A stretch of 36,509 nt of DNA from an uncultured Synechococcales cyanobacterium (GTDB taxonomy: Bacteria > Cyanobacteriota > Cyanobacteriia > CAIUCS01): NCBI GenBank assembly GCA_903897715.1, contig CAIUCS010000201.1:1-36509 (forward strand), written 5' to 3'. The stretch's first letter is position 1; every line of letters starts with the position of its first letter. The notes below the pieces were generated by a model. The model worked only from the letters and a program-made list of their open reading frames with translations, was not told the DNA's origin and did no database searches. Of the stretch, positions 15,208 through 17,932 are shown piece by piece. Both the position numbers and the translations under genes were made by a program.

Positions 15208-15220
15208 TTACTCCATGGAT

Positions 15221-15259
15221 AAAAAGGTGGGGGTGGCAGATGCCATCCCCACCTTTTTT
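15221..15259 (+). terminator. Rho-independent terminator of the atp operon
   Basis: AAAAAGGTGGGGGTGGCA pairs with TGCCATCCCCACCTTTTT, with one G-T wobble, and a run of six T closes the stem. It begins 14 bases after the gamma stop codon. The near-symmetric A- and T-runs mean it could also work on the minus strand. Confidence 0.92.
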
Positions 15260-15295
15260 ATGATTACGAAGCTGAATTTGATTGTTTTTATCATC

Positions 15296-15329
15296 GAAAC
15301 CGGTGACCCCCATGGGGGTCACCGGTTTC
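15296..15329. terminator. 34-bp perfect palindrome after psbY
   Basis: The half-site GAAACCGGTGACCCCCA (15296-15312) is followed immediately by its exact complement (15313-15329), centred on CCATGG. It starts 8 bases past the psbY stop on the minus strand and about 37 bases past the atp terminator on the plus strand. In RNA it would fold into a very stable hairpin. No T-run follows on either strand, so it is either a 3' stabiliser/terminator of psbY or a protein-binding palindrome. The palindrome itself is certain; its role is not. Confidence 0.6.
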
Positions 15330-15337
15330 AGTCTAAA

Positions 15338-15460
15338 TCAAGACTTACTTAAAAAAGCTTGAATTTGTCTAATAGCGACCTGACCAATGTTGTAGACCGC
15401 CCAACCGCCAGCCAAGATGACCGGGAGTAAAACGACTATGAGTCGTAGATCGAGATCCAT
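15338..15460 (-). CDS. psbY: Photosystem II protein PsbY
   Basis: A 40-residue protein, read on the minus strand from the ATG at 15460 to the TGA at 15338. It starts MDLDLRLIVVLLPVILAGGW and continues AVYNIGQVAIRQIQAFLSKS. The single membrane helix (about residues 6-23), the LLPV(I/L)LAxxWAV core, the following NI and the amphipathic basic C-terminal helix match cyanobacterial PsbY, a peripheral photosystem II subunit near cytochrome b559. Length is exactly that of the family. It stands alone, convergent with the atp operon, and a 34-bp palindrome follows the stop. It was found by translating the gap, since it is too short for routine ORF calling. Confidence 0.88.
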   Translation of the reverse strand: MDLDLRLIVVLLPVILAGGWAVYNIGQVAIRQIQAFLSKS

Positions 15461-15678
15461 GAACGCTGCTCCAAGCAAAGTATTGATAAGAGTTTTACAC
15501 CTAGTTTTATTGTCTGATGAATTGACCTTCTTGACTAGGGGATTCTCAAAATTCAGGAGATGAAATTTGATTTTCAGTGGACTCTGTTGGCAGGGAAAAT
15601 GACTCTTAGGTTACAATCGTGATCAGGGGAATAAACGTAAAATAAAACTCGTTGCCACATCTTTTTCCGGCGGAGGGT

Positions 15679-15906
15679 ATGTTAGTTATTTTTACAGATA
15701 ACCAAATTTTATCTACCCAGACCATCTGCCATAGCTGTCCATTAGCTGACCAAAATGGTCAGCCTCGATGGCGGCAGGGGGTACTGCAATGCGGACATCC
15801 ATTACATCAGTGTTCTTCTGAACAACAGGTCAACCAGTATGAATGCCAGATGGGATTCCTCTTGGTATATTTGACACTCCCTCGCTTAAAAGACGAGGAA
15901 TTCTAG
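15679..15906 (+). CDS. Small cysteine-containing cyanobacterial protein of unknown function
   Basis: A 75-residue protein that I cannot assign to a function. It contains ICHSCPLAD, then PRWRQGVLQCGHPLHQC, and YECQMGF: five cysteines and two histidines spaced like a small metal-binding or redox domain (CxxC, CGH, C, C). The LPRW-like/CGH/YECQMGF layout resembles short conserved hypothetical proteins of filamentous cyanobacteria. I prefer the ATG at 15679; GGAGGG lies just upstream but unusually close. A TTG at 15652 would add nine residues. A hairpin with arms CTAGAGGTCGTCTC and GAGACGATTTCTAG (15903-15953, 12 of 14 paired) follows the stop and may end the transcript. Confidence 0.6.
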   Translation: MLVIFTDNQILSTQTICHSCPLADQNGQPRWRQGVLQCGHPLHQCSSEQQVNQYECQMGFLLVYLTLPRLKDEEF

Positions 15907-16552
15907 AGGTCGTCTCTACGGGGGTTAAAGCCTTCCTTCGAGACGATTTCTAGGTACTCAGCCCGCTATTGCTAATGATTAGGGCACCTAACCCTGGTGA
16001 CAACTCCCACCGTCAACCGCTAAGAGCAGTCTGGTGGGGGTACTCCCTAGTTTAGATGGCTCACTACTGATTTTACGGAAAGTTTTGGGTTAATACTGAT
16101 AATTCCAGAGGTTTTCTGGAATCGTTCTCAATTAATACCGATTTTGGGCAATTAAACCGATACCTTCTACATATTCTTACCTCGTGAGATGGGTGCCGCA
16201 GAGCTGGCAATTGACTTCAAAGTCCCTCCCTCAAAACAGAATCAGGCATTCAGTGCGCTGACGTACAAAAGCACTAAATAGTTCACTCTTGATGCACCAC
16301 TAAATAAAAGACAAAATCTGAAACAGTCTATAATTATTTAATGAATTGTAGACTACACTTGTGTGTTAACATTCATAAAGATAATTTGTAATGAATGAAT
16401 GCCGCGATCGCGAATTGGAGTCCTCATCGAGTTCTTCATGGTTTCCAGTCTTGGGAGTTGATCCGTTCTAGGAGTGATCGCAGCCGGTTCAACGATTAAT
16501 TCGTATAGAGCCTATCCTCCTTAAACTTAATGCTTTTCTTATTCAAAACTGC
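15907..16552. other. Long non-coding gap with a candidate structured RNA
   Basis: About 645 bases with no credible gene on either strand. The first 150 bases are rich in secondary structure. A closing stem CTAGG (15950-15954) with CCTAG (16046-16050) encloses the hairpin TTAGG-gca-CCTAA (15979-15991) and the 8-bp stem CTCCCACC (16004-16011) with GGTGGGGG (16033-16040). GGTGAC and GTCAACC offer a competing pairing. Further on is a hairpin TTCCAGA-ggttt-TCTGGAA (16103-16121) and loosely repeated TTAATACCGAT-like words. The last 150 bases presumably contain the rimO promoter. I do not recognise a known RNA family here, so this is a candidate only. Confidence 0.4.
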
Positions 16553-17932
16553 ATGGGTCAATCAATTGCTATCTCCCATTTGGGCTGTGAAAAAAACCGA
16601 ATTGATACGGAACATATGTTGGGTTTGTTGGCACAAGCTGGGTACATCATCTCCATCGATGAATCCACTGCCGACTATGTTATTGTCAATACCTGTAGCT
16701 TTATTCAGTCGGCTCGGGAAGAATCTGTCCGCACCTTAGTCGAGTTAGCCGAAGCCAATAAAAAGATAATTATTACTGGCTGCATGGCACAACATTTCCA
16801 AGAGCAACTGTTGGAGGAATTACCCGAAGCTGTTGCTGTAGTCGGTTCTGGCGATTATCATAAAATTGTTCAAATCATCCACCGGGTTGAAAAGGGGGAT
16901 CGGGTCATCGAGGTTACCCCTGAACCCACCTACATTGCAGACGAACTTGTTCCTCGTTATCGAACCACTACGGAGGGGGTTGCCTACTTACGAGTATCTG
17001 AAGGCTGTGATTATCATTGTGCCTTTTGCATTATTCCCAAACTGCGAGGGAAGCAGCGGTCCCGTTCCATCGAGTCTATTGTCACTGAGGCTCATCAACT
17101 GGCTGCCCAAGGGGTGCAGGAATTGATTTTGATCTCTCAAATTACCACCAATTACGGAGCTGATTTATATGGTATCCCCCAATTAGCAAATTTACTGCGG
17201 GCACTCGGACAGGTGGATGTTCCCTGGATTCGGATGCATTATGCCTATCCCACCGGATTGACCCCAGATGTGATTGATGCAATTCAGCAAACACCCAATG
17301 TTCTTCCTTATTTAGATTTACCGTTACAGCATTCTCATCCCCACATTCTCAGGGCTATGAATCGTCCTTGGCAAGGACGAGTGAACGATAACATCATTGA
17401 ACGAATCAAAACAGCAATCCCCCAAGCAGTTTTACGAACTACCCTGATTGTTGGGTTTCCCGGGGAAACAAATGATCATTTTGAACACTTACACCAATTT
17501 GTGCGTCGCCATGAATTTGATCACGTTGGGGTTTTTACCTTTTCGCCAGAGGATGGTACTGCTGCCTATGACCTGCCGAATCCGGTTCCACCAGCTATTA
17601 TGGAAGACCGACGTGACCGTCTAATGCAGACACAACAGGCAATTTCCTGGAAAAAAAATCAAGCTGAAGTCGGCAAGGTGGTGGATGTTTTAATTGAACA
17701 GGAACATCCCGAAACGGGTCAACTGATTGGTCGTTCTGCTCGGTTTTCCCCAGACGTGGATGGTTTAGTTTATGTTCAAGGTTCAGCTCGTCTAGGTTCA
17801 ATGGTGCCTGTAAAAATTACGAATGCTGATATTTATGACTTGTATGGTGAAACACAAAAAACGACCAATGAATTCCCCTATTCAACGCTTTCCAATTCCT
17901 CCGCCCCCCATCCTTCCTATGCCATCCCTTAA
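16553..17932 (+). CDS. rimO: Ribosomal protein S12 methylthiotransferase RimO
   Basis: A 459-residue radical-SAM methylthiotransferase that adds a methylthio group to the conserved aspartate of ribosomal protein S12. The N-terminal UPF0004 domain carries the cluster ligands C12 ([11 protein letters not shown]), C48 (NTCSF) and C77 (TGCMAQ). The radical SAM motif CDYHCAFC supplies C152, C156 and C159, followed by [15 protein letters not shown]-terminal TRAM-like domain lies around residues 375-440. [19 protein letters not shown] and the RSRS motif favour RimO over the tRNA enzyme MiaB. The last 20 or so residues are a low-complexity Ser/Pro tail. The upstream gap is long (about 645 bases). Confidence 0.96.

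Follow-up and report, generated by a model that had tools for sequence, protein, structure and literature searches.

IS608 carries TCAA at its right end, and HEARO RNA is associated with mobile elements whose nuclease is RNA-guided. In an excerpt of PMC8612924, IS608 is said to target TTAC, and an RNA of ~150 nt is described which matches the 3' end of tnpB together with the right end (RE) of the element and continues into ~16 nt of adjoining DNA serving as a guide.

The locus described here can be compared with these systems. As in the tnpB elements of the IS200/IS605 type (ISDra2, IS608), an RNA scaffold overlaps the tnpB 3' end and the RE in a repeat termed block C, and as in ISDra2 and IS608 there is a hairpin at the end, directly followed by variable host DNA. 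Unlike in those elements, only ~109 bases are kept, with no tnpB body, left end or adjoining tnpA. The block C RNA resembles HEARO in its association with a mobile element that has an RNA-guided nuclease, whereas HEARO is not among the Rfam matches of the window. A second repeat, block B, is similar to solo IS200 ends, REP/RAYT sequences and MITEs, as it is short, dispersed and palindromic and shares the ends of Y1 elements; it differs from them in being a left/right hybrid, of which five solo copies were recognised, including the one in the window. We consider it very probable that the structured stretch is the relic of two IS200/IS605-type elements, namely the RE of a TnpB element on the minus strand and an IS200-like end-hybrid. 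The locus is an ordinary relic of known element types.

A folded gap upstream of a rimO-like gene

The window, which is the whole stretch of 36,509 nucleotides that was analysed, constitutes contig C201 of a 2.86-Mb genome in 207 contigs (hereafter the own genome, G000). Its genes are cyanobacterial, as are the named relatives of the gene at 16553-17932, which is rimO-like and is here called rimO, the name given to it in an earlier sequence-only reading. A 46-aa ORF further upstream (15338-15478, minus strand) presumably resembles the photosystem II protein PsbY. The features discussed below are as follows.

15679-15906, plus strand: conserved small cyanobacterial gene, its last codons and stop displaced by the RE (from homologues)
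15855-15870, minus strand: host flank abutting the RE, putative position of a ~16-nt guide (boundary from copies)
15871-15979, minus strand: block C, RE of a TnpB-type element of the IS200/IS605 superfamily (model R1, 128.6 bits)
15880-15898, minus strand: terminal hairpin of the RE, CCTCGTCTTTTAAGCGAGG (repeat search; covariation helix 6)
15903-15953, minus strand: scaffold helix of the omega RNA (reRNA), 15903-15916 with 15940-15953 (fold; covariation helices 2-5)
15950-15979, minus strand: end of the tnpB-like frame, IISNSGLST and a TAG stop
15997-16059, plus strand (tnpA sense): block B, solo left/right end hybrid of an IS200-like element, ~63 bp (solo copies)
16264-16393, no strand given: block A, a repeat with one other copy (118/130 bases) at the edge of contig C46
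16553-17932, plus strand: rimO-like gene (Pfam UPF0004, radical SAM and TRAM domains)

Between the stop of the upstream ORF (15906) and the start of rimO (16553) lie 646 bases. This gap had been called unusually long, which holds in so far as 15208-16552 (1,345 bases) is the longest stretch of the window without an ORF of at least 100 aa, followed by stretches of 609 and 603 bases; shorter ORFs were ignored in this ranking, and small ORFs fill part of 15208-16552.

The sequence-only reading had proposed a structured RNA at 15903-16130, built from a closing stem, a hairpin with a 3-base loop and a GC-rich stem of 8 bp. The stems do exist. For the stretch 15872-16130, none of 200 dinucleotide-shuffled sequences folded as well as the original on either strand (z = -3.43 on the minus and -3.39 on the plus strand), and the predicted plus-strand fold contains the closing stem as a 14-bp helix (15903-15916 with 15940-15953), the 3-base-loop hairpin inside 16019-16027 and the GC-rich stem, with 10 bp rather than 8, at 16003-16012 and 16032-16041. 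The proposed span fared less well: the stretch is indeed structured, but its true start is at 15871, inside the preceding ORF, and although the folding is real the span joins at least two unrelated repeats. On the minus strand, the predicted fold shows a 9-bp hairpin at 16101-16123. The near-repeats TTAATACTGAT and TTAATACCGAT flank this hairpin within 16087-16159.

We found at least 47 places in the own genome, the window included, that match 15870-16552, and they fall into the three blocks C, B and A; this number is a lower bound because 40 of 63 first-look candidates were scored. Matches at the DNA level to 15600-16552 were present in four of 39 genomes, which were the own genome and 38 others of its class. 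Besides the own genome, each of the three with a match contributed a single stretch of 29 bases, which fell within the small gene in two cases and within block B in the third. The own genome is also rich in decayed transposase genes, with 18 matches to Y1 transposases and seven to PF01385, many of which are partial or interrupted by stops.

Block C and the small gene next to it

The copies of block C resemble each other up to about TCAA (on the minus strand, ending at 15871), beyond which their flanks are unrelated, and at the other side the likeness ends at ~15979. A search for the terminal hairpin with at most three mismatches recovered 13 places in the own genome, including the window (reversed control: 0), and TCAA itself is present in ten of these 13 copies. 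One copy of the scaffold (L010, contig C17) is without the terminal hairpin. No left-end context surrounded any of the 13 hairpin copies, nor was a left end recognised for the element in the window; GTAA at 16388-16391 might be the target beside it, but as a candidate it is weak.

To compare block C with sequences elsewhere, a covariance model, R1, was built from seven aligned copies, among them that of the window. It matched 14 places in the own genome, which comprise the seven members of the model and seven new ones. The search of 193 other genomes, run with stricter filters than that of the own genome and with at most 19 scored candidates per genome, yielded at least 11 places in three genomes; under these settings matches were absent from the other 190. 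At nine of the 11 places an open frame terminates within the R1 match. The remaining two are L153, which has no frame of at least 60 aa at the match, and L154, for which 55 bases of upstream sequence were covered. The Pfam domain PF07282 (Cas12f1-like/TnpB domain, Cas12f1-like TNB) scored above its cut-off in eight of the nine frames and PF01385 in five, although the frames are not independent, as L149 and L151 are identical and four copies of genome G067 are 92-95% alike. The ninth frame (L156), a fragment of 100 aa where a contig ends, reached 22.2 bits for PF07282 against a cut-off of 26.3. The TAG stop occupies bases 29-31 of the match in the TnpB gene of G170 and bases 28-30 in the window. 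All four near-complete relatives in G067 have TTAC immediately before their left boundary and TCAA immediately before their right boundary, with a similar hairpin at both ends; in following TTAC they are like IS608 as described in the excerpt of PMC8612924. The RE at L153 (G128) is ~91% identical over 188 bp to the RE of complete elements in the same genome.

The stems of block C are conserved as structure. For the covariation analysis we used 25 R1 matches, representing 21 distinct rows (alignment A3). Changes on both sides occurred in 21 of 28 pairs and 93.3% of the cells were paired, figures that lean upwards because A3 was fitted to the R1 structure and its rows are related. The observed values were reached by none of 500 shuffles, and sliding the partners by one to three columns lowered the pairing to 45-50%. 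In helix 6, the terminal hairpin, every one of the eight pairs was changed on both sides in some row.

Within the own genome, little of the corresponding protein was found. On contig C115, the block C copy has ahead of it a stretch with 62% identity to residues 318-401 of the G170 TnpB. Most copies of block C show no clear TnpB reading upstream of the last codons. A 402-aa TnpB query recovered three pieces only, which are residues 318-401 and 288-311, near one another on C115, and residues 19-84 on C10, interrupted by two stops; a full-length TnpB of the type of block C was not found in the own genome with this query. None of the open frames that hold the seven PF01385 matches is longer than 331 aa, and Pfam gave no match at E 0.01 for two frames beside weaker R1 matches (L141 and L143).

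As judged from its sequence, block C is shown by homology to be the remnant of an RE that comprises the end of a tnpB frame, an omega-RNA scaffold and a terminal hairpin ending in TCAA. This bears out one of the suggestions of the sequence-only reading, a decayed mobile-element end accompanied by its RNA, for which the R1 matches, the tnpB frame ends, PF07282 and the covariation all speak. Against it count the missing left end, in contrast to the hairpins at both ends in G067, the lack of a clear TnpB reading above most copies in the own genome, the two frames there that gave no Pfam match, the 190 genomes in which R1 matched nothing under the settings used, the copy that has no terminal hairpin, and the stretches 15980-15996 and 16060-16263, to which nothing convincing is similar. 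By analogy with the described systems, 15855-15870 would be the guide site in such an omega RNA.

The RE also reaches into a gene. The small gene at 15679-15906 belongs to a family with matches in 73 of 96 genomes, the own genome included. We read the 3' ends of the best-scoring 29 homologues, of which 21 end four residues past the aligned part, mostly in the manner of CQMGFRIANIE, while three have a 13-residue tail. In the window, the gene reads CQMGFLLVY and then continues into the element-encoded LTLPRLKDEEF before the stop. Block C thereby provides the small gene with a tail of 11 residues and a TAG stop.

Block B, block A and the sequence between them

Block B lies 17 bases further in from block C. 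In longer copies of it, the left end resembles 15997-16040 and the right end 16008-16059. These two ends are fused into a unit of ~63 bp in the window, and the same holds for at least four further solo copies, the flanks of which are unrelated. Ten Y1 transposase loci, two of them overlapping, were fetched from the 18 matches. Ends of the B type were present at six of the ten, and at three of these six both ends were found. The locus L031, which holds the sole near-full-length Y1 match in one open frame, has no B-type ends.

In the IS200-like left ends (window 15997-16059 and L016-L024), CGTC is located just before the palindrome ACCGCT-AAG-AGCGGT. According to an excerpt of PMC3733652, CGTC-tagged repeats seem to be without a dedicated transposase. 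We considered the palindrome of block B as a REP of the CGTC type and rejected this, since it does not fit the features that the same excerpt gives (a loop of 4-5 bases, a stem starting with AT); because these features do not fit, the CGTC link is a lead only.

The possibility that block A represents the left end belonging to the TnpB element was considered and discarded: the terminal hairpin is missing from it, and where it ends cannot be defined, as its only other copy runs up to a contig edge. Joining the host flanks at 15870/16388 keeps an open frame, with a tail unlike that of most homologues, and a four-base target is prone to occur by chance; this junction is a weak lead. No convincing relatives were found for 15980-15996 and 16060-16263, and a frame at 16076-16216 (minus strand), tried as a coding remnant, had no Pfam match.

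Other readings and the fate of the element

The sequence-only reading had also suggested a small RNA or a long leader of rimO. A stable plus-strand fold and a location upstream of rimO would suit a long structured leader or a stand-alone small regulatory RNA, yet the remaining evidence makes either very improbable. No Rfam family, HEARO included, reached its gathering score in the gap, and the four weak matches obtained there at E values up to 10 did not include HEARO. Across the whole window, the single match at gathering scores was a tRNA at 2402-2486, and a tRNA/tmRNA search gave only tRNA-Ser at 2401-2487. A type-P3 twister ribozyme on the minus strand (16159-16087) scored 19.6 bits against a gathering score of 39.9, with an E value of 0.51, and was rejected as a chance match. 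Terminator-like sites were absent from the gap (0 against 0.7 expected) and promoter-like sites were at chance level (3 against 2.3 expected). Furthermore, blocks B and C are dispersed repeats which recur in the own genome away from rimO, and the covarying stems sit at the 3' ends of tnpB frames. The gene order upstream argues against a leader as well: the neighbours on this side (the small gene, the psbY-like ORF and atpG) were found in none of the flanks of 80 named relatives, which extend over at most 5 kb and are in some cases shorter, whereas the DEAD-box helicase gene downstream was present in 77 of them. Most likely, the folded stretch is not a new regulatory RNA.

It is similarly doubtful in the extreme that block C is a working orphan omega RNA, guided by minus-strand 15870-15855, which matches the 3' end of the small gene, with either a TnpB or a nuclease-dead relative of it acting in trans. 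The preserved sequence of the scaffold helix, the hairpin and the boundary would favour this, but the likeness to other copies stops at 15979, while the reRNA in the excerpt of PMC8612924 measures ~150 nt, and the own genome offered only pieces to the 402-aa TnpB query and PF01385 frames that do not exceed 331 aa. Hardly any greater credit can be given to the idea that such a minus-strand RNA, running antisense to the small gene at its 3' end, regulates this gene together with a TnpB-like protein in trans; if true, a regulator of a conserved small gene would have arisen from a transposon relic. The least plausible reading is that the stems of decayed DNA pair by chance, for although 16060-16263 is without convincing relatives and the DNA fold of 16240-16400 stands out only weakly from shuffles (z = -1.67, matched by 11 of 200), none of the 200 shuffles matched the fold of 15872-16130 and the pairs of block C change on both sides across copies and genomes.

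For the preferred reading, a relic of two IS200/IS605-type elements, the following course may be proposed. A TnpB element would have come to lie in minus orientation within the last codons of the conserved small gene. Of the inserted element, ~109 bases at the RE persist, and the rest was presumably lost by deletion. Following a proposal published for TnpB, the intact element would have given rise to an RNA from the same strand, made up of the scaffold and a guide of ~16 bases copied from the adjacent host DNA, and this RNA would direct TnpB to the emptied donor site, where a cut could lead to restoration of the element from the sister copy. Guide-RNA activity has most likely been lost at the locus in the window, to judge by the DNA, since only a truncated element is present and the genome search recovered no TnpB of this type at full length. 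The present effect would be a passive one, confined to the new 11-residue tail and stop codon of the small gene.

One candidate for a new RNA is thus struck off, and the ends of transposons can mimic such an RNA. The locus also offers an example of how TnpB elements decay, in which scattered solo REs outlast the nuclease gene, and one such solo RE furnishes a conserved gene with a new tail and stop codon.
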